A DNA stretch of 64,000 nt from an uncultured Lacinutrix sp. (GTDB lineage: Bacteria; Bacteroidota; Bacteroidia; Flavobacteriales; Flavobacteriaceae): assembly GCF_947500325.1 (NCBI RefSeq), contig NZ_CANMRQ010000001.1, positions 312,001 through 376,000 on the forward strand, written 5' to 3'. The translations under genes and the position numbers were made by a program. Shown here piece after piece: positions 49,017 to 61,351 of the stretch; positions within the stretch are counted from its first letter, which is position 1, and each line of letters starts with the position of its first letter. The notes beneath the pieces were generated by a model, which worked only from the letters and a program-made list of their open reading frames with translations, was not told where the DNA came from and did no database searches.

Positions 49017-49022
49017 CTATAA
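48897..49022 (+). CDS. Small ORF, 41 residues
   Basis: MNIATNLPEQPTTLNRISNT is followed by VKKTARFAKSVLYLTKKVFML. The second half is an amphipathic, Lys-rich helix. It is not a recognised family. It meets the convergent ABC ATPase gene and overlaps its last codons by a few bases. It could be a small membrane-active peptide or chance coding. Confidence 0.35.
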   Translation: MNIATNLPEQPTTLNRISNTVKKTARFAKSVLYLTKKVFML

Positions 49023-50702
49023 ACCTTTAGGTATAGCATTAATTAATTTTTTGGTATACTCTTTTTTGGGTGATGCATAAATAATATCGGCATCATCAAT
49101 TTCTTCAATTCTTCCTTTATTCATTACTAGTAATTGATCACTCATGTATTTTACAACAGCTAGGTCATGAGAAATGAAAATATAAGTAAATCCATACTTT
49201 TCTTTTAGTTCATTAAGCAAATTTAATACCTGAGCTTGTACAGATATGTCTAAAGCCGAAACAGATTCATCACAAACTATTAGTTTTGGTTGTAATGCAA
49301 CGGTTCTTGCTATCCCAATACGTTGTCTTTGACCACCTGAAAACTCATGCGGATAACGATTAAAATAACTTTCATTTAAACCTACTCGATTTAATATCTC
49401 TATTACTTTGTTTTTTCTTTCGGCTGTGTTTTTATACAATTTATGTACCTCCATAGGTTCCATTATTGCTTTTCCAATAGTTAGTCTAGGGTTTAAGGAA
49501 GAATATGGATCTTGAAAAATGATTTGAATATCTTTTCTTAGCATTTTTATTTCTGAAGGAGATAGCTTAGTTATATCTTTTCCTTTAAATAATACGCTTC
49601 CTGAACTTGGCTTGTCTAGTAATAATAGAGCGTTGCCTAATGTCGATTTGCCACAACCAGACTCTCCAACTAATCCTAAAGTCTCTCCTTCATATAGCTT
49701 AAAGCTAACATTGTCTACTGCTTTAAAATATTTAGGTTTTGTAAACCAACCAGATTTTGAAACATATGTCTTATCTAGGTTAATTATTTCTAGCAATGGT
49801 GCTTTGCTATATATTTTTTCATGTTCTTGTTTTCTCATTTCTAAAGTTATAATGTCTTTAGAAATACTATTATTCATAACGTCATCAATAGTGGGTAGTT
49901 TTTTTAGTCTAGTTTTTAATGAGGGTCTTGAAGTTATTAGCGCTTTAGTATAACTATGCTCAGGAGATTTGAAAATAGTATTTACTGTATTTTGCTCAAC
50001 AATTTCACCTTTGTACATTACAATTATGCGATTAGCTATTTGAGAAATTAAAGATAAATCGTGTGTTATAAAAATAACACTCATTTTGGTTTCTAATTGT
50101 AATTCTTTTAACAAAGAAATTATGTCATTTTGAACTGTAACATCTAATGCGGTTGTAGGTTCATCTGCTATTAAAATTTGAGGCTTACATGCAATAGCCA
50201 TAGCAATCATAACACGTTGTTTTTGGCCGCCAGAAATTTCATGAGGATAAGACTTGAAAACGCGTTCCGGTTCAGGAAGTTTCACCTTTTCAAAAAGACG
50301 TATTGTTTCTGTTTTAATTTCCTTTTTTGTTAAGGTTGTATGTTGTAATAATATTTCTTCAATCTGTTTACCGCATGTCATAGATGGGTTTAATGAGCTC
50401 ATTGGTTCTTGAAAAATCATTGCGATTTTTTTGCCTCTTATTTTCTGAAAAGATTTAGATGATAATTGAGTTAAATCTTTAGATTCAAAAACAATATTTC
50501 CAGAAGTAATTTTTGATATTTTTTTAGGTAGTAAACCTAATATGGCTAGTGACGAAACAGACTTTCCAGAACCAGATTCTCCCACAATACCTAGAATTTC
50601 ATTTTCCCCTAAATGATATGAAATGTTATGAATAACTTCATTTTCCTTTCCATTTGAAAAAAAAGAAACACAAAGGTTTTTTATTGATAATAAATGACTC
50701 AT
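49017..50702 (-). CDS. Dipeptide/oligopeptide ABC transporter, fused double ATPase
   Basis: The protein has 561 residues made of two ABC domains, like YejF or GsiA. Domain 1 (about 1-255) has GESGSGKS, SGGQKQRV and LIADEPTTALD. Domain 2 (about 300-561) has GESGCGKST, SGGQRQRI and VCDESVSALD. Both carry the C-terminal oligopeptide transporter element (SPEHSYTKALI; SPKKEYTKKLI). It energises uptake of peptides with permeases encoded elsewhere. Its position next to three secreted peptidases fits use of their products, though it is on the opposite strand. Confidence 0.9.
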   Translation of the reverse strand: MSHLLSIKNLCVSFFSNGKENEVIHNISYHLGENEILGIVGESGSGKSVSSLAILGLLPKKISKITSGNIVFESKDLTQLSSKSFQKIRGKKIAMIFQEPMSSLNPSMTCGKQIEEILLQHTTLTKKEIKTETIRLFEKVKLPEPERVFKSYPHEISGGQKQRVMIAMAIACKPQILIADEPTTALDVTVQNDIISLLKELQLETKMSVIFITHDLSLISQIANRIIVMYKGEIVEQNTVNTIFKSPEHSYTKALITSRPSLKTRLKKLPTIDDVMNNSISKDIITLEMRKQEHEKIYSKAPLLEIINLDKTYVSKSGWFTKPKYFKAVDNVSFKLYEGETLGLVGESGCGKSTLGNALLLLDKPSSGSVLFKGKDITKLSPSEIKMLRKDIQIIFQDPYSSLNPRLTIGKAIMEPMEVHKLYKNTAERKNKVIEILNRVGLNESYFNRYPHEFSGGQRQRIGIARTVALQPKLIVCDESVSALDISVQAQVLNLLNELKEKYGFTYIFISHDLAVVKYMSDQLLVMNKGRIEEIDDADIIYASPKKEYTKKLINAIPKGL

Positions 50703-50734: not shown

Positions 50735-50883
50735 ATTACGGCAAAAACCGTAATCACATCGAACGTTATTATTTTGTTGGCATTTCATCGAAAAATCTAC
50801 AGGATAAATATGAATTAAACAAAATAACCTATTAATTATTATTAATTTTATTAAAATTTTATTAATCCATTAAACCCTTTCGT
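50735..50883 (+). promoter_or_regulatory. Shared upstream module before the M12B-like peptidase
   Basis: ATTACGG-CAAAAA-CCGTAAT is a perfect palindrome at 50735-50754. TTTCATCGAAAA follows at 50783-50794, its end 90 nt before the ATG. Then come a seven-base spacer and GGATAAATA, and the leader ends ATTAATCCATTAAACCC just before the start. The same order recurs before the next two peptidase genes. Confidence 0.6.
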
Positions 50884-53800
50884 ATGAAAAAAGTATTACT
50901 TTTTGCTTTTTTCCTAAGTACTATTTTTGCGTTTTCGCAAGATAAAGTATTATGGGAAAAACAATCACCGGCTAATTTTGCTAAAGTTAAAGAAAGCAAA
51001 AGAAATTTACCAACAAAACAAATTTATTCACTAAATCTTAGTAATCTAAAACAAACATTAGAAAATGCTCCCAAAAGAGGAGAATTTTATGGAGAATCTA
51101 ATGTAATTGTATCTTTTCCAAATGCAGATGGTAGTTTTGAGCGCTATCGTATAATGGAGGCTTCAGTTATGCATCCAGAATTAGAAGCTAAATACCCTGG
51201 TATTAAGTCTTATGCCGGACAGGGAGTAGACAATGCATCAGATCGTATCCGTTTTAGCGTATCTCCATTGGGACTACAAAGTATGCGTTTATCTGCTAAT
51301 AAAGAAGCGTCTTTTATTGAGCCTTATACTAATGATCTATCTCAATATACAATATATAAAAGAGCTGATAAAACAGCTGATTTAAGTGATTTTGAATGTG
51401 AAGTAACAGCAAAAGCAAATAATGTTTTATCTGGCAATAATACAGCTTTTAAGAACGCAGATGATAGTATTTTGCGTACCTATAGAATTGCAGTATCTAC
51501 AACTGGAGAGTATACAGCATATCATGGAGGGACTAAAGCTCAAGCTTTGGCAGCAATTAATACGACTATGACCAGAGTTAATGGTATTTTTGAAAATGAC
51601 TTCAATGTTACAATGGTATTAATTGCTAATACAGATGATGTAATTTATACCAATGGAAATAGTGATCCTTATTCTAATGGTAGTTTTAACGGTCAGTTAC
51701 AAACGACTCTTACAAATAATATAGGAGAGGCTAATTATGATATAGGGCATTTATTTGCTAGGGCTTCTAATAATGGAAATGCAGGCTGTATAGGCTGTGT
51801 TTGTGTAAACGGAAGTAAAGGTAGTGGATGGACATCACGTGATACTCCAGAAGGAGATCCTTTTGATGTTGATTTTGTAGCGCATGAAATTGGTCATCAA
51901 TTTGGTGGAAATCATACATGGACTCATGGAGGAAATGAAGGTAGAAACGTACAAATGGAACCAGGAAGTGGAACAACTATTATGGGATACGCAGGGATTA
52001 CAGGTGCTAATACAGATGTGCAACCAAATAGTGATCCATATTTTCATGCTATTTCTGTCCAACAAATTACAAATTATATAAAGACAACTAGTTGTCAAAC
52101 AAACACAAATACTAATAATGCAGTGCCAACTGCAAATGCTGGGTCGAATTATACAGTTCCAAAAGGAACAGCTTTTGTGTTAGAAGGAACAGGTGCTGAT
52201 GCTAATTCGCAAGACGTATTAACATATTGCTGGGAACAAATAGATGAAAACGATTCTGCAACATCTAAACCTAGTGTAACTGCAACTGCAGGACCAGCGT
52301 TTAGATCGTATAACCCAACAACAGATAATAAAAGATATTTTCCAAGATTATCAACAGTGAAAACCGGAGCTACAGCATGGGAATGGGAAGCTGTGCCAAA
52401 TGTTGCTAGAAATTTAAATTTTAGACTAACTGTTAGAGATAATCGAGCTGGTGGTGCTAATAATAATAGCGACGATATGCGTGTAACGGTAAATGGAACA
52501 GCAGGACCATTTGTTGTAAATGCTCCTAATACTAATGTAACATGGAATGGAGGAACAACCCAAACTGTAACATGGAATGTAGCCGGAACAACAGGAAATG
52601 GAGTGAATGCTGCAAACGTTGATATTTTCCTATCCACAGATGGTGGAGATACTTATCCAATAACATTAGCTTCTGGAGTAACAAATGATGGATCTCATGA
52701 TATAGTAGTTCCAAATAACCCAGGAAACCAAAATAGAATTATGGTTAGAGGATCTAATAATATCTTTTTTGATATTTCAAACTCTAACTTTACTATTGGA
52801 GCGCCTGTATCTTGTACGGCAAATGTACCTACTGGATTATCAGCTTCAAATATTGGTTCTTCTTCGGCTACTTTAAGTTGGACTGCTGTGCAAGCAGCTA
52901 CTTATGATTTGCGTTATAGAGTTGTAGGTACATCAACATGGACAACTAACGCTGTAACTAGTATTTCTTCAAACGTGTCTGGATTATCTGCATCTACTCA
53001 ATATGAAACTCAAGTAAGAAGTAAGTGTTCTGGTGGAAGTAACTCTTCTTATAGTGCGTCTGTTAATTTTACAACAACAGAAGTGCAGTTGAATTATTGC
53101 AGTTCGAATGGAAATAATACTAATGATGAATATATTAGTAGAGTTGAATTAGGATCTATTAATAATACATCAGGAGTTGGTACAACGAGTACAGGTTATT
53201 CGGATTTTACATCAATTTCAACAGGCTTATCAAAAGGAGCATCTGCAACAATAACAATAACACCAACTTGGACAGGAACTTTATATAATGAAGGTTATGG
53301 CGTGTTTATAGATTATAATAAAGATGGAGATTTTACAGATTCAGGAGAAACGGTTTGGACAAATGCAGCATCTCAAACCACACCAGTTAGCGGAACATTT
53401 ACGGTTCCAGCAAGTGCTGCAGATGGAGCAACAAGAATGCGTGTAGTAATGCGTTATAATGTAACACCAACATCTGCTTGTGGCTCATTTAATTATGGAG
53501 AAGTAGAAGATTACACAGTAAACATAGGTGGTACAGTAGCAGATACCACAAAACCTGTAATTACACTGGTAGGAAATGCGTCTATAAGTCTTACTGTTGG
53601 TGCTAGTTATACAGATCAAGGTGCAACAGCAACAGATAATGTGGATGGAAACTTAACATCAAGTATAGTTACAACAGGATCTGTAAATACGGCATTAGAA
53701 GGCGTTTATACAATTAGATACAATGTGAGTGATGCAGCAGGAAATGCGGCAACAGAAGTAACTAGAACTGTAACGGTAACTGCTCCAGTTTCAGTAACAT

Positions 53801-54498
53801 ATTGTTCTTCTAATGGAAATAATACAAATGACGAGTATATTTCACGAGTACAAGTAGGCTCTATAGATAACACATCGGGAGTTGGAACTACAAGTACTGG
53901 TTATTCAGATTTTACATCAACATCAACAAACTTGTCCAAAGGAGTATCAACGACAATAACTATAACTCCAACATGGACGGGAACAATCTACAGAGAAGGT
54001 TATGGTGTATTTATAGATTATAATCAAGATGGTGATTTCACAGATTCAGGAGAAACGGTTTGGACGCAATCAAGAACAAGAACAACGCCAGTTAGCGGTT
54101 CATTTACAGTACCAGCAGGAGCGACTAATGGAGCAACAAGAATGCGTATAGTGATGCGATATAATGTAACACCAAATTCGGCATGTGGATCATTCAATTA
54201 TGGTGAAGTGGAAGACTATACAGTAAATATTGTAAATTCAAGTATTGGTGAAGCATTAACTACTAGAGGAGATGAATTAATAGAATTAAGTATTTATCCA
54301 AATCCAGTAAAAGGAAATACATTATATGTAAAATCTAATAAAAGTTTACCTTATACAGTTGTTAATACGTTAGGTCAGCAAGTGGCTAGAGGTATTTCAA
54401 CAAATACAATAGATGTAAGTGATTTAGAAGCAGGTTTATATATAATACAATTTAATGTCAATAATAAAATAGAAACAAGAAAATTTATAAAGCGATAA
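50884..54498 (+). CDS. T9SS-secreted reprolysin-like (M12B) metallopeptidase
   Basis: The protein has 1204 residues. Signal peptide 1-19. Propeptide to about 190. Metzincin catalytic domain about 195-405 with H334-E335-IG-H338-QFGGN-H344 and Met-turn TTIMGYAG. Fibronectin type III about 650-735. GEVED domain 738-880. Ig-like DUF5011-type domain about 888-965. Second GEVED 973-1118. T9SS type A sorting domain 1136-1204 (LSIYPNPVKGN to ETRKFIKR). It is exported through the outer membrane, and the C-terminal domain is removed on export. It digests external proteins, and the GEVED and Ig domains probably bind substrate or surface. A terminator follows. Confidence 0.9.
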   Translation: MKKVLLFAFFLSTIFAFSQDKVLWEKQSPANFAKVKESKRNLPTKQIYSLNLSNLKQTLENAPKRGEFYGESNVIVSFPNADGSFERYRIMEASVMHPELEAKYPGIKSYAGQGVDNASDRIRFSVSPLGLQSMRLSANKEASFIEPYTNDLSQYTIYKRADKTADLSDFECEVTAKANNVLSGNNTAFKNADDSILRTYRIAVSTTGEYTAYHGGTKAQALAAINTTMTRVNGIFENDFNVTMVLIANTDDVIYTNGNSDPYSNGSFNGQLQTTLTNNIGEANYDIGHLFARASNNGNAGCIGCVCVNGSKGSGWTSRDTPEGDPFDVDFVAHEIGHQFGGNHTWTHGGNEGRNVQMEPGSGTTIMGYAGITGANTDVQPNSDPYFHAISVQQITNYIKTTSCQTNTNTNNAVPTANAGSNYTVPKGTAFVLEGTGADANSQDVLTYCWEQIDENDSATSKPSVTATAGPAFRSYNPTTDNKRYFPRLSTVKTGATAWEWEAVPNVARNLNFRLTVRDNRAGGANNNSDDMRVTVNGTAGPFVVNAPNTNVTWNGGTTQTVTWNVAGTTGNGVNAANVDIFLSTDGGDTYPITLASGVTNDGSHDIVVPNNPGNQNRIMVRGSNNIFFDISNSNFTIGAPVSCTANVPTGLSASNIGSSSATLSWTAVQAATYDLRYRVVGTSTWTTNAVTSISSNVSGLSASTQYETQVRSKCSGGSNSSYSASVNFTTTEVQLNYCSSNGNNTNDEYISRVELGSINNTSGVGTTSTGYSDFTSISTGLSKGASATITITPTWTGTLYNEGYGVFIDYNKDGDFTDSGETVWTNAASQTTPVSGTFTVPASAADGATRMRVVMRYNVTPTSACGSFNYGEVEDYTVNIGGTVADTTKPVITLVGNASISLTVGASYTDQGATATDNVDGNLTSSIVTTGSVNTALEGVYTIRYNVSDAAGNAATEVTRTVTVTAPVSVTYCSSNGNNTNDEYISRVQVGSIDNTSGVGTTSTGYSDFTSTSTNLSKGVSTTITITPTWTGTIYREGYGVFIDYNQDGDFTDSGETVWTQSRTRTTPVSGSFTVPAGATNGATRMRIVMRYNVTPNSACGSFNYGEVEDYTVNIVNSSIGEALTTRGDELIELSIYPNPVKGNTLYVKSNKSLPYTVVNTLGQQVARGISTNTIDVSDLEAGLYIIQFNVNNKIETRKFIKR

Positions 54499-54535
54499 GA
54501 ATCTAATATCCCTTAAACTAGGCTTTTATTGTTGG

Positions 54536-54560
54536 GCCCAGACGAAAGTCTGGGCTTTTT
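54536..54560 (+). terminator. Terminator after the M12B-like peptidase
   Basis: GCCCAGAC-GAAA-GTCTGGGC is a perfect GC-rich 8-bp stem with a stable tetraloop, followed by five T. Confidence 0.92.
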
Positions 54561-54604
54561 GTTTTTCTCAATAAAACAGCTTAATCGTAGAATAAAACTT
54601 AAAC

Positions 54605-54727
54605 CGAACGTTAAAATTTTAACAGTATTTCATCGAAAAGCCCATGGGATAACTAGGTATTAAATAAATAATTAATACTTTCGCTGCCGATCTAATAAAA
54701 AATTAATTAATTCATTAAATTATCCTC
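54605..54727 (+). promoter_or_regulatory. Shared upstream module before the M43 peptidase
   Basis: CGAACG is followed by the perfect palindrome GTTAAAATTTTAAC at 54610-54623. ATTTCATCGAAAA follows at 54627-54639, its end 89 nt before the ATG. Then come a seven-base spacer and GGATAACTA, and a leader ending TTAATTCATTAAATTATC. No TTACGG palindrome is seen at the expected place. TACTTTCG at about 54678 resembles a weak -7 box. Confidence 0.6.
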
Positions 54728-57160
54728 ATGAAAAAAACAATTACATTATCATTGTTGAGTTTTTTATTTGCGTTTACAACTTTTGCGCAAGACGCAAGAA
54801 ATTGTGCGTCTATGGAAAACTTAGAGTACAGAAAGCAGCAAGACCCAAATCTTGAGCAACGAATGGCACAAATTGAAGCTTTTTCAAAATCAAGAGAAGC
54901 TCAATTAGAAAATTCTCAGAATAAGATTGTAGGAAACATTATAACACTACCAGTTGTTGTTCACGTATTATATAGAAATGCCACTGAAAATATTAGTGTT
55001 GCACAAATTCAATCACAATTAGACGTTTTAAATGAAGATTTTAGACGTACTAACCCAGATGCAGATAACGTATGGTCTCAGGCAGCAGATACTCAAATTG
55101 AATTTTGCTTAGTAACTGTTGACCCTAATGGAAATGCTACTACGGGAATTACAAGAAAATCTACAACTAGAAGAGACTGGGGAACATCAGACGATATGAA
55201 AAGAGCTTCATCTGGTGGTATTGACCCATGGGATACTAGCGAATATTTAAATATGTGGGTTGTACCACAAATGTTAAATTCTCAAGGTGGAACAATTTTA
55301 GGTTACGCACAATTTCCTGGAGGAGCTGCATCTACAGATGGTGTAGTAATGGGTTATAACTATTTTGGTAGAACAGGAGCTGTATCTGCGCCTTTCGATG
55401 GTGGTAGAACAACTACTCATGAAGTGGGGCACTTTTTAAACTTACGTCATATTTGGGGAGATTCAAACTGTGGTAATGATTTTGTAAGTGATACACCAAC
55501 ACATCAAACTTCAAATGCTGGTTGTCCTGCAGGAAGAGTATCTTGTGGATCTACAGATATGTATCAAAACTATATGGATTATTCTAATGATGTGTGTATG
55601 AATTTATTTACTACAGGTCAAAAAAATAGAATGCGTGCGGTTTTAGATGTTGGAGGTTTTAGAAGAAGTTTAGCATTATCTGATAAGTGTGGTGCTGTAG
55701 CACAGCCAACATGTACTGATGGTATTCAAAATGGAAATGAAACAGGTGTAGATTGTGGTGGTTCATGTACTCCATGTCAAACAGGAACACAGTATTGCGA
55801 TTCTAATGGAAATAATACTAATGATGAATATATAAGCCGTGTAGAATTAGGCACTATAAATAATGCCTCTGGTGTAGGTACAACAAGTACAGGGTATTCT
55901 AACTTTACAAATATATCTACAGACTTATCTAAAGGAGCTTCTGCAACAATTAGAGTAACTCCAACTTGGACAGGTACTAAGTATAATGAAGGTTATGCAG
56001 TATATATTGATTATAATAACGATGGAGATTTTACTGATTCAGGAGAAACAGTATGGACAAATGCGCCATCTCAAACAACACCAGTAGTTGGAACATTTAC
56101 AGTCCCAGCTAGTGCAACTAATGGAGAAACAAGAATGCGTGTAGTAATGAGATATAATACAACACCAACTTCAGCTTGTGGCTCATTTGATTATGGAGAA
56201 GTGGAAGATTACACTGTAAATATTGAAACAGGTACTACAAACCCTCCAGCAGGTGGATGTACAGGAGGTATCACATCATTCCCTTATAGTGAAGGTTTCG
56301 AATCTAGTTTTGGAGCTTGGACTCAAGGTAGTGGAGATGACTTTAACTGGACAAGAAATTCTGGTACAACTGCTTCAAGTAACACAGGACCATCTAGTGC
56401 ATCTCAAGGATCTCAATATGTATATATGGAATCTTCATCTCCAAACAACTCTAATGATAGAGCAATTTTAGTGTCACCTTGTTTTAACTTAACAGGTCAA
56501 AACCAAGCAACATTTAGTTTCAAATATCATATGTATGGAGCTTCAACAATGGGTAACTTAAAATTAGCAATAAGCACAAATAACGGATCTTCGTGGACTA
56601 CAGTATGGAGTAAAGCTGGTAACCAAGGAAACTCATGGCAAGATGCAAGTGTAGACTTATCTTCATATGAAGGAGATACAGTTCAGTTAAGATTTGATGG
56701 AACGACAGGTACTACATGGCAAGGAGATATGGCTGTTGATGCTATTTCATTAGCAAATGGAGCTACTTCTGCAGATAAATGTGCAGGTGTTCAAGCTTAT
56801 GTTAGTGGTCAATCTTATTCTGTAGGAGAAAAAGTGACTTATCAAGGAACTTTATATCAAAGAACTGCTTCTGGTTGGACTAATTTAGGAGCTTGTGGTA
56901 CAGCAAGAACAGATGAAGGATTTGTAGAGCATTTAGGTGTGGATATAAAAGTATACCCTAATCCAGTAAAAGGAAACACATTATTTGTAAAGTCTAGTGT
57001 TGAAAACTTATCGTTTACTGTTGTAAACATGTTAGGTCAGCAAGTAGCAAGAGGTACATCTACTAACGGTGTAGATGTTAGTAATCTTCAAGCTGGAATG
57101 TATATGATACAATTTAATGTCAATGATAAATTAGAAACAAGAAAGTTTATCAAGCAATAA
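54728..57160 (+). CDS. T9SS-secreted M43 (cytophagalysin-type) metallopeptidase
   Basis: The protein has 810 residues. Signal peptide 1-20. Catalytic domain about 70-320 with H231-E232-VG-H235-FLNLR-H241, where Asn replaces the usual Gly of the metzincin motif, as in other flavobacterial members. A short Cys repeat at 331-352 (DGIQNGNETGVDCGGSCTPC). GEVED 355-500. MAM-like jelly-roll 518-678. CBM5/12-like chitin-binding segment about 683-725 (YVSGQSYSVGEKVTYQGTLYQ). T9SS type A sorting domain about 738-810. It degrades extracellular protein, possibly bound to chitin or other polymer surfaces. It has its own terminator. Confidence 0.9.
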   Translation: MKKTITLSLLSFLFAFTTFAQDARNCASMENLEYRKQQDPNLEQRMAQIEAFSKSREAQLENSQNKIVGNIITLPVVVHVLYRNATENISVAQIQSQLDVLNEDFRRTNPDADNVWSQAADTQIEFCLVTVDPNGNATTGITRKSTTRRDWGTSDDMKRASSGGIDPWDTSEYLNMWVVPQMLNSQGGTILGYAQFPGGAASTDGVVMGYNYFGRTGAVSAPFDGGRTTTHEVGHFLNLRHIWGDSNCGNDFVSDTPTHQTSNAGCPAGRVSCGSTDMYQNYMDYSNDVCMNLFTTGQKNRMRAVLDVGGFRRSLALSDKCGAVAQPTCTDGIQNGNETGVDCGGSCTPCQTGTQYCDSNGNNTNDEYISRVELGTINNASGVGTTSTGYSNFTNISTDLSKGASATIRVTPTWTGTKYNEGYAVYIDYNNDGDFTDSGETVWTNAPSQTTPVVGTFTVPASATNGETRMRVVMRYNTTPTSACGSFDYGEVEDYTVNIETGTTNPPAGGCTGGITSFPYSEGFESSFGAWTQGSGDDFNWTRNSGTTASSNTGPSSASQGSQYVYMESSSPNNSNDRAILVSPCFNLTGQNQATFSFKYHMYGASTMGNLKLAISTNNGSSWTTVWSKAGNQGNSWQDASVDLSSYEGDTVQLRFDGTTGTTWQGDMAVDAISLANGATSADKCAGVQAYVSGQSYSVGEKVTYQGTLYQRTASGWTNLGACGTARTDEGFVEHLGVDIKVYPNPVKGNTLFVKSSVENLSFTVVNMLGQQVARGTSTNGVDVSNLQAGMYMIQFNVNDKLETRKFIKQ

Positions 57161-57190
57161 AAGATATCCTTTAGACAACAAAATTATTTT

Positions 57191-57226
57191 AAAAAGCCTC
57201 AACATATTTGTTGAGGCTTTTTTTTG
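57191..57226 (+). terminator. Terminator after the M43 peptidase
   Basis: AAAAAGCCTCAACA-TATT-TGTTGAGGCTTTTT is a 14-bp perfect stem followed by T. Confidence 0.92.
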
Positions 57227-57243
57227 TTTTAATGCCTTAGCAG

Positions 57244-57391
57244 TTACGGGTTTAACCGTAAATTTTATAGAATAAAATTCTACTTAATGTTATTCGTCGA
57301 AAAGAACCGAATAAATATTCGGGTTTAATATGGTTTTAATAATTTAATTAAGAATTATTCAAACAATTAATTAATCCATTAAATTATCATT
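57244..57391 (+). promoter_or_regulatory. Shared upstream module before the M36 peptidase
   Basis: TTACGG-GTTTAA-CCGTAA lies at 57244-57261. ATTCGTCGAAAA ends at 57303, 89 nt before the ATG. It is followed by CCGAATAAATATTCGG, which is itself a palindrome (57307-57322). The leader ends TTAATCCATTAAATTATC. The spacing from the first palindrome to TCGAAAA is 35 bases, against 34 before the M12B-like gene. Confidence 0.6.
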
Positions 57392-60300
57392 ATGAAAAAC
57401 AGTTTTAAATTGTTTTTACTGCTAGTTTTTGCAGTACAAACGTCATTTTCCCAAAAACAAATGAATGGTGTCGTCCAGAACTACTTTAATAGTATCTCTG
57501 AAGCGTCAGAATCTAAAGCAGCAGATTTGTCTGAATGGAAAATTACAGATATTGTCCCCTCATTGAACCCAGAAATTCAACATGTTTATGTTCAACAATA
57601 TCATAATAATATTCCAATTCAATTTGCTAGTTATAAGTTAACCGTTAAGAATAATCAAGTAACATGGAATATTAACCAGTTTGTTACAGATATAGCATCA
57701 AAAGCTAATGCTGCGATCCCTTCAATCACTCCAGAGAATGCTGTATTAAAAATAGTTAATAAACACCGTTTGATGAATCCTATACTAAAAAGGACTAAAA
57801 CTAAAAACGGAGTGTATGAGTATAAAAATTCAGGAATAAGTGAAGAGCCAATTAAAGTTAAACAATTATATCAAATGTATAATGGTAAATTAAGATTGGT
57901 TTGGAATGTTAGTCTATATCAAAAAGATGGACAACATTGGTGGAACATAAATATAGATGCGAATACAGGTAAAACACTCTATACTGAAGATTGGGTAATC
58001 TCTTGTAATTTCGATGATTCAAATCATGAAAATCATAAACATGACAACAAAACGTTACATGTAGAAGAAGAAATGGGACCCGTTTTATATGAAGCTAAAA
58101 AAGTAAATGAAGCTTTTGTTGGAGGCGGATCATATAATGTATACCCTTTAGGTATTGAAAGTCCTAGTCATGGTAACCGTACAATTGTAAGTGATCCTGC
58201 AACTGCAACAGCATCTCCATTTGGATGGCATGACACTAATGGCTCATCTGGAGCTGAATATACAATTACAAGAGGTAATAATGTTTGGGCACAAGACGAT
58301 ACAAATGGGAACAATGGAACTGGAACGTCTCCAAATGGAGGATCTAGTTTAAATTTCGATTTTGCATTAAATTTAAATAATAATCCTTCAACATTTTTAC
58401 CTGCTGCTACTACAAACTTATTTTATTGGAACAATATTATGCATGATGTATGGTATGAGTATGGGTTTAATGAAGCTTCTGGTAATTTCCAGGAGAACAA
58501 TTATGGAAAAGGAGGAATAGGAAGTGACTCTGTAAATGCAGATGCGCAAGATGGAAGTGGTACTAATAATGCAAATTTTGGTACACCTCCAGATGGAAGT
58601 AATCCTAGAATGCAAATGTTCTTATTTACTAATCCAACAAGAGATGGTGATTTAGATAATGTAATTATTGCTCATGAATATGGTCATGGAATTTCAACAA
58701 GACTTGTAGGTGGTCCAGGAACTAATGCTCTTGGTGGCTCTGAACAAATGGGAGAAGGATGGTCTGATTGGTTTGGACTTGTTATGACAATACGTCCAGG
58801 AGATGACCGAAACACTGCCCGTGGAGTTGGCACCTATGCAATAGGTCAACCAACAACTGGAGCTGGAATTCGTCCAACAAGATATTCTACTGATTTAGCT
58901 GTAAATGGAACCGATTACGGTGATATTTCAGGACTGTCTGTTCCACATGGTGTAGGTTATGGGTTTGCAACTATACTTTGGGATATGACTTGGGATCTTA
59001 TTGATTTAGAAGGCTACGATAGTAACCAATATACAGGTACTGGAGGTAATAATATTGCGATGGCTCTTGTTATAGAAGGTCTTAAGAATACAGCAAATAA
59101 TCCAGGATTCGTTTCTGGACGTGATGGAATTCTTCAAGCAGATCAAGATCTTTATGGAGGTCAATATAACTGTTTAATTTGGGATGCTTTTGCAAGAAGA
59201 GGTGTTGGTGTAGATGCTGTAGAAAATACTAATGGAGGAACAAATACTAACTCAGATCAAACGACTTCGTTTACTAGCGGTTGCTCTGCTCCACCACCAC
59301 CAGCTAGTTGTAATTCTACTTTGGATAACTTTCCTTATAGTGAAGGATTTGAAAATACATTAGGCGCATGGTCTCAAGGAGCTGGAGACGATTTTGATTG
59401 GACACTTAATACTGGAGGAACACCATCTAATAGTACTGGTCCAGCAGCTGCTTTTGAAGGAACACATTACATATATGTAGAAGCTTCAGATCCAAATTTT
59501 GGAGGGAAAAGTACGATATTAAATTCACCGTGTTTTAATCTTACAAGTGTTAATTCACCAACGGCTAATTTCCATTATCAGATGACAGGAAACTCAGTTG
59601 GTACCATTAGACTTGAGGTAAGATTAGATGGTGAAAATACATGGACAGAAATATGGTCTCAATCTGGTGATCAAGGAGCTGCATGGATAGAAGCGAATAT
59701 AGATTTAGCTGCTTATACGAATAATACTATTCAATTGCGTTTTAGAGGTACAACAAATACTTCATGGCAAGGAGATATAGCTATTGATGCCTTTGGAATT
59801 GAAGGAGCAACAACAGCAGACACTCAAGCTCCAAGTACACCAACAAACCTTGCGGTAACAGCTGTAACAACTAATACAGTGAGTCTATCCTGGAATGCTT
59901 CAACCGATAATGTAGGAGTAACTGGATACAATGTTTTTAGAGACGCAACAAATATAGGAACTGTAACAAGTACAACATATCAAGATACTGGTCTTGCCGA
60001 GGGAACAACATATCAATATACAGTAAGTGCTACTGATGCTGCCGGTAATATTTCAGCAGAAAGTAATACAGCTTCTGCGACTACAGATACTACACCACCA
60101 AATGGAGGATGTGTAAATGGACAAAATGCTCCATATACAGAAAGTTTTGAGGCTAGTCTTGGACTTTGGTCGCAAAGTGGCGGAGATGATATTAATTGGA
60201 CTCGTGATTCTGGAGGAACGCCTTCTAATAATACAGGACCATCTACTGGGTCTAATGGGTCATTCTATTTATATGTGGAAGCTTCAGGTAATGGAACAGG

Positions 60301-61351
60301 ATTTCCTAATAAACGTGCAATTATAAACTCTCCTTGTTTTGATTTAGCTGGTGAAACGGATGTGTCTTTTGTCTTTGATTATCATATGTTTGGATCTACA
60401 GATGGCGGCCGAGTAGATTTAGAAGTAAGTACAGATAGTGGCACTACTTGGACTAGTATATGGAATCAAACTGGTAACCAAGGTAATCAATGGAATACAG
60501 TTACTATTGACCTTGCTGCTTACTTAGGAGGAGCAATACAATTACGATTTAATCGTATTACCGGAGGTACTTGGCAATCCGATGTTGCTATTGATAATAC
60601 ACGCCTTGTATCTGGAGGAGTTGGAAACCCTAATCCACCAACAGGTTATTGTTCGTCTAACGGACAAAACAATAGTGAAGAATTTATTAGTAGAGTGCAA
60701 ATAGGAAGTATTAATAATGCTTCTGGCGCTGGTGCTGGAGGTTATCAAGATTTCACAAACCTTTCTACTGATTTAAGCGGAAGTACTTCTATTACAATTA
60801 CTCCTACATGGACAGGTACTGTTTATAGTGAAGCATATGCTGTATTTATAGATTGGAATAGAGATGGCGATTTCGCAGATGCTGGAGAAACAGCATTTAC
60901 GCAAGCTCCTACACAGGCAACTTCTATTAACGGAACAATTACAGTTCCTTCTGGAGCATCGCAAGGTCCAACAAGAATGCGAGTGTCTTTGAAATATAAT
61001 GCAGCGCAAACTGCTTGCGAAAGCTTCAACTTTGGAGAAGTGGAAGATTATATTGTAAATGTAACATCTAACATAAATGGCTTTGGTTTAGCAGATACTA
61101 ATGGTAGTATAAATGATACAGCTAATTTTGAGTTCTCAATTTTTCCTAATCCAGTTACTAGCGGAGAACTTAATGTTCGAGTTGCAGGAGGAAAAGCGCA
61201 AAAACTTATAATATATAATGCACTTGGACAAATAGTGCGTAAAGGTGCATTTATAGAAAAGGTAAATGTTTCAAACCTAGATGCTGGAGTTTATATTTTA
61301 GAAATAGAAATAGAAGGTAAAGTATTAAATAAGAGGTTTATTAAAAAATAG
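57392..61351 (+). CDS. T9SS-secreted M36 (fungalysin) metallopeptidase
   Basis: The protein has 1319 residues. Signal peptide 1-20. Fungalysin/thermolysin-type propeptide about 40-190. Catalytic domain about 230-625 with H428-E429-YG-H432 and the third ligand Glu in SEQMGEGWSDWFG. MAM-like domain about 645-800. Fibronectin type III 813-900. Second MAM-like domain 911-1080. GEVED 1083-1223. T9SS type A sorting domain about 1245-1319 (FSIFPNPVTSGEL to LNKRFIKK). It is a broad-specificity extracellular zinc protease of thermolysin fold. The accessory domains are mixed copies of those in its neighbours. Confidence 0.92.
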   Translation: MKNSFKLFLLLVFAVQTSFSQKQMNGVVQNYFNSISEASESKAADLSEWKITDIVPSLNPEIQHVYVQQYHNNIPIQFASYKLTVKNNQVTWNINQFVTDIASKANAAIPSITPENAVLKIVNKHRLMNPILKRTKTKNGVYEYKNSGISEEPIKVKQLYQMYNGKLRLVWNVSLYQKDGQHWWNINIDANTGKTLYTEDWVISCNFDDSNHENHKHDNKTLHVEEEMGPVLYEAKKVNEAFVGGGSYNVYPLGIESPSHGNRTIVSDPATATASPFGWHDTNGSSGAEYTITRGNNVWAQDDTNGNNGTGTSPNGGSSLNFDFALNLNNNPSTFLPAATTNLFYWNNIMHDVWYEYGFNEASGNFQENNYGKGGIGSDSVNADAQDGSGTNNANFGTPPDGSNPRMQMFLFTNPTRDGDLDNVIIAHEYGHGISTRLVGGPGTNALGGSEQMGEGWSDWFGLVMTIRPGDDRNTARGVGTYAIGQPTTGAGIRPTRYSTDLAVNGTDYGDISGLSVPHGVGYGFATILWDMTWDLIDLEGYDSNQYTGTGGNNIAMALVIEGLKNTANNPGFVSGRDGILQADQDLYGGQYNCLIWDAFARRGVGVDAVENTNGGTNTNSDQTTSFTSGCSAPPPPASCNSTLDNFPYSEGFENTLGAWSQGAGDDFDWTLNTGGTPSNSTGPAAAFEGTHYIYVEASDPNFGGKSTILNSPCFNLTSVNSPTANFHYQMTGNSVGTIRLEVRLDGENTWTEIWSQSGDQGAAWIEANIDLAAYTNNTIQLRFRGTTNTSWQGDIAIDAFGIEGATTADTQAPSTPTNLAVTAVTTNTVSLSWNASTDNVGVTGYNVFRDATNIGTVTSTTYQDTGLAEGTTYQYTVSATDAAGNISAESNTASATTDTTPPNGGCVNGQNAPYTESFEASLGLWSQSGGDDINWTRDSGGTPSNNTGPSTGSNGSFYLYVEASGNGTGFPNKRAIINSPCFDLAGETDVSFVFDYHMFGSTDGGRVDLEVSTDSGTTWTSIWNQTGNQGNQWNTVTIDLAAYLGGAIQLRFNRITGGTWQSDVAIDNTRLVSGGVGNPNPPTGYCSSNGQNNSEEFISRVQIGSINNASGAGAGGYQDFTNLSTDLSGSTSITITPTWTGTVYSEAYAVFIDWNRDGDFADAGETAFTQAPTQATSINGTITVPSGASQGPTRMRVSLKYNAAQTACESFNFGEVEDYIVNVTSNINGFGLADTNGSINDTANFEFSIFPNPVTSGELNVRVAGGKAQKLIIYNALGQIVRKGAFIEKVNVSNLDAGVYILEIEIEGKVLNKRFIKK

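Follow-up and report, generated by a model that had tools for sequence, protein, structure and literature searches.

A conserved palindrome before secreted peptidase genes of Lacinutrix points to a NarL-type response regulator with an adjacent putative small RNA

How might three neighbouring genes for secreted peptidases of different families come under common control? The question is raised by a 64,000-nucleotide (nt) stretch of DNA from an uncultured Lacinutrix sp. (contig NZ_CANMRQ010000001.1, positions 312,001 to 376,000; hereafter the window), which harbours an M12B-, an M43- and an M36-type metallopeptidase gene, referred to below as genes 1, 2 and 3. Marine Flavobacteriaceae degrade much of the protein and polysaccharide of the ocean, and to our knowledge the switches for their secreted peptidases are hardly known. 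In the fish pathogen Flavobacterium psychrophilum the control of metalloprotease expression remains to be elucidated, according to passages of PMC9723704. An original prediction, made from the letters of the window alone, had described a module upstream of all three genes, consisting of a box, TC(A/G)TCGAAAA, a GGATAA element and an A/T-rich leader, and had proposed either one regulator or an alternative promoter. The observation holds, and common control is upheld in large part, but the central signal is a different element, an 18-bp palindrome. Judged from sequence, the three promoters probably form part of a small conserved regulon under a tetratricopeptide repeat (TPR) kinase and a NarL/LuxR-type regulator that would bind this palindrome.

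The palindrome, TTACGG-N6-CCGTAA, precedes the box of genes 1 and 3 by approximately 30 nt (Table 1); it is the strongest element that they share and was missing from the original list. The genome contains nine exact copies, all with an N6 spacer although N3 to N9 were allowed, and the reversed control yields two. None of the nine falls within an open reading frame (ORF, taken as a stop-free stretch) of 100 codons. When one mismatch is allowed just three further palindromes appear, one of them a second copy beside the site on contig C22 described below; at this tolerance the reversed control reaches 17, equivalent to approximately 0.5 exact copies expected. The palindromes are thus either exact or absent, a pattern unlike chance. 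Two of the nine precede window peptidase genes and one precedes a gene for an M57 metallopeptidase (PF12388, E 1.5e-68). One is located between a TonB-dependent receptor gene and lepA, another between tsaE (PF02367) and a gene for a protein of 180 amino acids (aa) without Pfam match, and three belong to an array on contig C2. The last, accompanied by a near-copy 23 bp away, sits directly 3' of a sensor kinase/response regulator gene pair on contig C22.

This pair provides the candidate reader of the palindrome. In the kinase, TPR, HisKA_3 and HATPase_c are recognized by Pfam, which shows no other phosphorelay domain. The response regulator (L049 2497-3180) matches PF00072 above the cut-off, and PF00196 with E 2.5e-4 and 21.0 bits, just below the cut-off of 23.5. 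Its closest solved relatives are RcsB, VraR and DesR, with a best E of 8e-11 and a near full-length match to RcsB; the predicted combination of a receiver with a C-terminal LuxR/GerE helix-turn-helix is that of the NarL/FixJ (LuxR-type) class. A paralogue with 38% identity is encoded in the same genome (G000:C21:13537-14202). A scan for the regulator returned 46 loci, including 38 close relatives with 57–81% identity that occur in Lacinutrix, Bizionia, Xanthomarina, Formosa, Yeosuana, Tamlana and others; the nearest is from Lacinutrix sp. MedPE-SW (81%).

The region 3' of the regulator gene follows a recurrent plan. Subtraction of eight of the 46 loci (L087, L088, L090, L092-L096) leaves 38 which, together with the own locus, make a set of 39. 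In 28 of these a palindrome starts 50–114 nt after the end of the regulator gene, in 27 cases as an exact TTACGG-N5/6-CCGTAA. It is followed by a -7-like element and then by an RNA-like gene of ∼100 nt, a putative small RNA (sRNA) composed of an ATCAAC stem, a ATTAATTAATCCCTCA loop found in many genera, GTTGATAATAGCA and a terminator. A regular expression picked this gene in 31 of the 39 loci, and 26 sequences were aligned. Two-sided changes affect 8 of 11 pairs in the terminator helix and 0 of 6 pairs in the 5' stem; folding z-scores of five single sequences range from -3.6 to -6.4, much of which is accounted for by the terminator. Half-site spacing was assessed in 35 loci, with L068, L070, L083 and L086 also omitted: in 30 of them, 32–37 nt separate the end of the nearest CCGTA-type half-site from the RNA start, and the remaining five comprise distances of 21, 28 and 41 nt and two not assigned. 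No Rfam match to the sRNA-like gene reaches the gathering score, loci L049, L043, L059, L072 and L148 giving one tRNA and six sub-threshold matches, and inspection of the 26 aligned sequences reveals no repeated GGA in loops.

A further sRNA-like kind is associated with the C2 array (L043 4340-5530, minus strand). By inspection, each of its three units is ordered as palindrome, 23 nt, TTTTCGAtgaa, 20 nt and TACTTTTG; the TTTTCGAtgaa copies, TTTTCGATGAA, TTTTCGATAAA and TTTTCGACGAA, correspond to the box of the original prediction in reverse. Units 2 and 3 end in GGTTAATAGCGG and a terminator without a clear gene, and are sRNA-like, and unit 1 reads into a hydrophobic ORF of 72 aa. An AATAGC stretch behind a GTT-containing segment is common to both kinds of sRNA, those of the array and those adjacent to the regulator. 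Two modes of sRNA action were considered and rejected. Titration of CsrA was discarded because no PF02599 match is present in this genome, in a search whose control found CsrA in 3 of 14 named genomes. Base pairing of the two sRNA kinds with the leaders of the three peptidase genes and of the M57 gene gained no support, as these ranked 9th to 41st of 42 leaders in four comparisons.

Regulator, palindrome and sRNA were then followed across 149 genomes of the family, nearly one per genus. A close regulator relative (E <= 1e-58) is present in 60 genomes and any match at 1e-40 in 80. The 60 regulator-positive genomes contain a mean of 1.95 palindromes, compared with 0.63 in the other 89 (Mann-Whitney p = 2e-5, a value that overstates independence, since the genomes are related); the corresponding means for the reversed control are 0.90 and 0.81. 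Three or more palindromes are found in 17 of the 60 versus 4 of the 89. A model of the sRNA produced 58 matches in 52 genomes, six of the matches lying away from the regulator. In 50 of the 60 regulator-positive genomes a match is located directly 3' of the regulator on the same strand, at 71–166 bp, and the 89 other genomes show two weak matches (E 0.006 and 0.008). As the model was trained on regulator-adjacent loci, this adjacency arises partly by construction; the near-absence from the 89 genomes does not. Nine of the ten regulator-positive genomes devoid of a model match were inspected by eye, G015 being left out. Three (G122, G013, G068) contain palindrome-like elements and an RNA of similar kind, RNA-like units of another kind are present in G143 (two) and G077 (one), G096 and G087 display single degenerate elements only, and in G118 and G057 neither a palindrome-like element nor an RNA unit was seen. 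At locus L244 of G143 a regulator relative with 49% identity precedes a tandem pair of RNA-like units of a different kind, and a palindrome or half palindrome stands before each unit.

Ten genomes selected for the presence of regulator and palindromes contain 55 palindromes (N5 or N6 allowed), and in eight of the ten an exact copy lies just 3' of the regulator gene. The spacer is nearly uniform within each genome: N6 in G093 (9/9) and G098 (2/2), and N5 in G107 (7/7), G014 (6/6), G141 (5/5), G148 (7/7), G038 (6/6), G097 (3/3) and G028 (3/3). The sole exception among the 55 sites is found in G091, which has six N6 and one N5. A single protein that co-evolves with its sites would account best for this uniformity. 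Eight columns of the regulator alignment, including 170, 184 and 185, separate the N6 from the N5 clades, a pattern indistinguishable from shared descent.

The surroundings of 49 of these palindromes were examined, the other six being regulator-adjacent by their coordinates, and a single one of the 49 lies inside an ORF. Peptidase genes are recurrent targets. In G148 a palindrome precedes each of three neighbouring genes for S8, M12B and M14 peptidases, in G141 palindromes precede M12B and M14 genes, and in G093 and G038 an M43 gene; in all four genomes these targets adjoin a gene for a fused oligopeptide-type ATP-binding cassette (ABC) ATPase. Two further palindromes of G148 stand before an M43 lipoprotein-like gene and another S8 subtilase. 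The M57 target reappears in G091 and G093, the TonB receptor/lepA target in G107, G141 and G038, and the C2-like region in G091 (two palindromes) and G093 (one). Most recurrent is the interval between tsaE and the 180-aa protein gene, which is a target in 7 of the 10 genomes. It is represented by L048 4819-5079 and by L142, L150, L154, L166, L174, L176 and L181, and in L048 it holds a short ORF starting MRTKKYVIALAIFG. Several other palindromes precede, by eye, genes for lipoprotein-like or small secreted-looking proteins, and some precede genes without evident link. In L147, L156, and L151 near a penicillin-binding-protein-like gene (by eye), small secreted-looking proteins are encoded 3' of palindromes and one contains cysteine; they could be bacteriocin-like or signal peptides.

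Upstream regions of M43 and M12B relatives were counted at 16 of 30 and 22 of 30 loci, respectively, with expectations from dinucleotide shuffles. A palindrome with up to three mismatches precedes 6 of the 16 M43 genes (1.8 expected) and 12 of the 22 M12B genes (2.1 expected). Divided into orthologues and paralogues, a split made after the upstream sequences had been seen and of which the pooled counts are independent, the figures become 6/9 versus 0/7 for M43 and 11/15 versus 1/7 for M12B; for the 15 close M12B relatives 1.4 would be expected from shuffles. The M43 split places G138 (60% identity) among the orthologues and G060, G143 and G010 (66, 67 and 60%) among the paralogues. In G091, which belongs to the same genus, the M43 relative (86% identity) has a palindrome with one mismatch.

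The position of the palindrome relative to the promoter takes different forms. The sRNA, M57 and TonB-receptor promoters lack a box, and in them 19–21 nt separate the palindrome from the start of the -7-like element. Passages of PMC9723704 give TAnnTTTG as the Bacteroidetes sigma-A -7 element and TAnnTTGY as SM5, an alternative element of F. psychrophilum. Matches to TAnnTTTG are good in the sRNA and own M57 promoters and near in gene 2 (TACTTTCG), whereas TonB-receptor promoters (L046, L163, L167, L178) have TAnnTTG(C/T) at the -7 position, closer to the SM5 form. At peptidase promoters the distance from the palindrome to an 8-mer ending in CGAAAA is, by inspection, 23–24 nt in G038, G141, G005, G045 and G107 and 33–35 nt at window genes 1 and 3 and in G093, G091 and G148, so that the two classes differ by about one helical turn. 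Sequence anatomy, conservation, co-occurrence and spacings are direct observations.

The box of the original prediction does stand at a fixed place, ending 90, 89 and 89 nt before the three start codons, and a search for TCRTCGAAAAN{3,10}GRATAA finds three matches in the 4.57-Mb genome, all at these genes (reversed control 0). As a genome-wide motif of its own the box was rejected: TTCATCGAAAA with up to one mismatch occurs at 244 places, compared with 458 for the reversed control, and with up to two mismatches at 56 places within the window, where 44 are expected. The meaning of the box therefore depends on its context; similar boxes do precede some peptidase genes of relatives. GGATAA and the A/T leader are common to the three window genes, as had been stated, but relatives whose upstream sequences were compared by eye do not conserve them, and GGATAA and leader TTAATYCATTAAA were accordingly dropped as regulatory parts. 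An alternative promoter is unsupported in the best case, since gene 2 carries TACTTTCG, near the sigma-A -7 element, 36 nt behind the box. Coordinated control by one regulator is supported by the palindromes and, in part, the boxes before related peptidases in other genera, with the unlisted palindrome as its main element.

In the circuit proposed here, the TPR-type kinase and the NarL/LuxR-type regulator of contig C22 would sense a signal, and the phosphorylated regulator would bind TTACGG-N6-CCGTAA (N5 in other clades). At the adjacent sRNA, M57 and TonB-receptor promoters, the short distance to the -7-like element would place the regulator next to the polymerase, in a class II-like position. 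For genes 1 and 3 of the window, the regulator would act from further upstream, with the TCGAAAA box between palindrome and promoter. A second factor probably binds the box, which at gene 2 and several relatives is followed after 36 nt by a TACTTTC-type -7 element, and transcripts are predicted to start a few nt 3' of the TACTTTC/TATATTTG elements. We propose that this geometry, together with leaders of similar length, produces the fixed spacing seen originally. The regulator would also switch on the conserved ∼100-nt sRNA encoded just 3' of its own gene, so that peptidases may be controlled directly and again via the sRNA. The regulator is predicted to activate, as opposed to repress, secreted peptidases and sRNAs, in the manner of GacA at its N6 box, and the transcript starts and the action of the sRNA are predictions of the same kind.

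Several observations weigh against this circuit, and some of them favour a different role for the box. Gene 2 has no recognizable palindrome (best match, five mismatches) and yet keeps the box, which may act as the principal regulator site of the peptidase genes, recognized by a second factor, the palindrome being a modulator. The arrangement box-(35-37)-TAnnTT[TC], a pattern defined after inspecting these promoters, occurs before 6 of 16 M43 genes (0.04 expected) and 2 of 22 M12B genes (0.05 expected), that is in 8 of 38 promoters versus 0.09 expected; seven of these have a distance of 36 nt and the eighth one of 37 nt. From the unequal counts the arrangement appears to be chiefly a feature of M43 promoters and the palindrome the wider element. 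Many palindrome-bearing M12B promoters lack a box, there is none between palindrome and -7 at the sRNA, M57 and TonB-receptor promoters, and the box is not enriched genome-wide. A leading role for the box is accordingly judged rather unlikely. The -7-like stretches of genes 1 and 3 are poor matches to the sigma-A consensus, which also counts against the proposed circuit, as does the relatedness of the sampled genomes. At least one palindrome is present in 40 of the 60 regulator-positive and 35 of the 89 other genomes; with 20 of the 60 devoid of an exact copy, single palindromes are non-diagnostic.

Synteny by itself is no proof of binding, and the four genomes that have at least three palindromes without a close regulator relative would fit a real regulon served by another DNA-binding protein, the regulator gene merely adjoining one target, the sRNA. 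The linkage of regulator, palindrome and sRNA across many genera, a palindrome number that tracks the presence of the regulator, and the binding of short inverted repeats by NarL-type regulators make such a protein unlikely. Palindromes can form RNA hairpins, and several follow soon after gene ends, as would be expected of transcription terminators or a repetitive element; their occurrence between divergent genes (TonB receptor/lepA, peptidase/ABC), a place at which transcripts would not be expected to end, and their constant spacing to -7-like elements render this very improbable. Hardly credible is a by-product of recent tandem promoter duplication within the cluster, the segmental duplication against which the original prediction had been set. 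The three window genes are indeed adjacent and share tail modules, but the alignment of their upstream regions, which is A/T-rich, shows 68% agreement per column. In other genera palindromes, and in part boxes, precede related peptidases and those of other families, in other gene orders; palindromes stand, in different surrounding sequence, before S8, M12B and M14 genes in G148, M12B and M14 genes in G141, and M43 genes in G093 and G038.

The regulon under the C22 pair would thus include the window cluster, whose features are collected in Table 1. According to domain scans, a GEVED domain and a type A sorting tail of the type IX secretion system (T9SS) are common to all three peptidases. No Rfam match is present in the window. 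The ABC ATPase gene that is divergent from gene 1 is a possible co-target of the first palindrome. ABC ATPase-like genes also occur at palindromes, divergent to peptidases, in L151, L169, L172 and L180 (Pfam-checked in L169 and L180), and this recurrence suggests joint control of peptide release and uptake.

Table 1. Genes and candidate control elements of the peptidase cluster (window positions)
Feature	Position	Strand	Remarks
Fused oligopeptide-type ABC transporter ATPase gene	49017..50702	-	divergent; same intergenic region as first palindrome
TTACGGCAAAAACCGTAA palindrome, M12B-like gene	50736..50753		proposed response-regulator site; 1 of 9 exact genome copies
TTCATCGAAAA box, M12B-like gene	50784..50794	+	ends 90 nt before ATG 50884
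M12B reprolysin-like metallopeptidase gene (gene 1)	50884..54498	+	Pfam PF13583, TIGR04183; T9SS type A tail
ACCGAACG half-site-like element, upstream of M43 gene	54603..54610	+	similar element after palindrome in some other promoters (by eye)
TTCATCGAAAA box, M43 gene	54629..54639	+	ends 89 nt before ATG 54728
TACTTTCG candidate -7 element, M43 gene	54676..54683	+	36 nt after box
M43 metallopeptidase gene (gene 2)	54728..57160	+	Pfam PF05572, TIGR04183; T9SS type A tail
TTACGGGTTTAACCGTAA palindrome, M36 gene	57244..57261		exact copy; upstream of M36 gene
TTCGTCGAAAA box, M36 gene	57293..57303	+	ends 89 nt before ATG 57392
TAATTTAA weak -7-like element, M36 gene	57340..57347	+	36 nt after box
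M36 fungalysin-type metallopeptidase gene (gene 3)	57392..61351	+	Pfam PF02128; NF038113 below its cut-off; T9SS type A tail

A circuit of regulator, sRNA and exoenzymes of this kind appears to be undescribed so far: among the openly licensed matches listed, no title or abstract start describes this regulator, palindrome and sRNA, which does not prove that there is none. With a defined DNA site, a named regulator gene and a conserved putative sRNA, the control of the peptidases becomes directly testable. In its widest form the proposal is of an independent, Gac-like circuit of Flavobacteriaceae, to which we give about an even chance. The regulator would directly activate not only at least six families of secreted peptidases (M12B, M36, M43, M57, M14 and S8) but also small secreted proteins, a TonB-dependent receptor and two or more undescribed kinds of sRNA; the sRNAs would act on the secreted-enzyme programme without CsrA, and the box would serve a second activator, one linking remote regulator sites to the promoter. 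If true, Gac-type logic (sensor, palindrome, sRNA and exoenzymes) would operate in a bacterium where CsrA was not found.

How does this arrangement compare with known systems? Among solved proteins, RcsB, VraR and DesR come closest to the regulator, albeit as distant relatives. An sRNA, RprA, is under the control of RcsB as well, whereas the DNA motif and regulon of the three proteins differ from those described here. In F. psychrophilum, deletion of the sRNA Rfp18 lowers the mRNA of the metalloproteases Fpp1 and THC0290_0300 in stationary phase (PMC9723704). Rfp18 comes from the same bacterial family and is tied to metalloproteases, a likeness by description; the passages of PMC9723704 name no regulator or palindrome for it, and the text has 0 occurrences of LuxR. 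The PorXY-SigP pathway is likewise a case of two-component control linked to T9SS-secreted peptidases in Bacteroidetes; in the passages of PMC4800418, PorX/SigP concerns components of the T9SS machine, whereas the sites analysed here precede cargo peptidases, and the DNA-binding domain of the present regulator is LuxR-type.

The closest parallel in logic is the GacS/GacA-Rsm(Csr) system of Gammaproteobacteria. GacA belongs to the NarL/FixJ class, Gac has secreted enzymes among its outputs, and the sRNAs of Gac/Rsm carry repeated GGA loops. The Gac box, TGTAAGN6CTTACA, is a 6-N6-6 palindrome upstream of sRNA genes, as described in passages of PMC11837529, and both systems would share a response regulator, a 6-N6-6 site before sRNA genes and more than one sRNA. 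The differences are considerable: the half-site here is TTACGG/CCGTAA, with spacer N6 in the own clade and N5 in others; the sRNA is devoid of Rfam matches and repeated GGA loops; CsrA was not found in this genome; the palindrome also stands directly before peptidase genes; and the kinase scan lists no further phosphorelay domain. The different half-site, the different sRNA and the missing CsrA indicate that the circuit is not a member of Gac/Rsm. By analogy, it would work like Gac at the step of transcription without belonging to that system.

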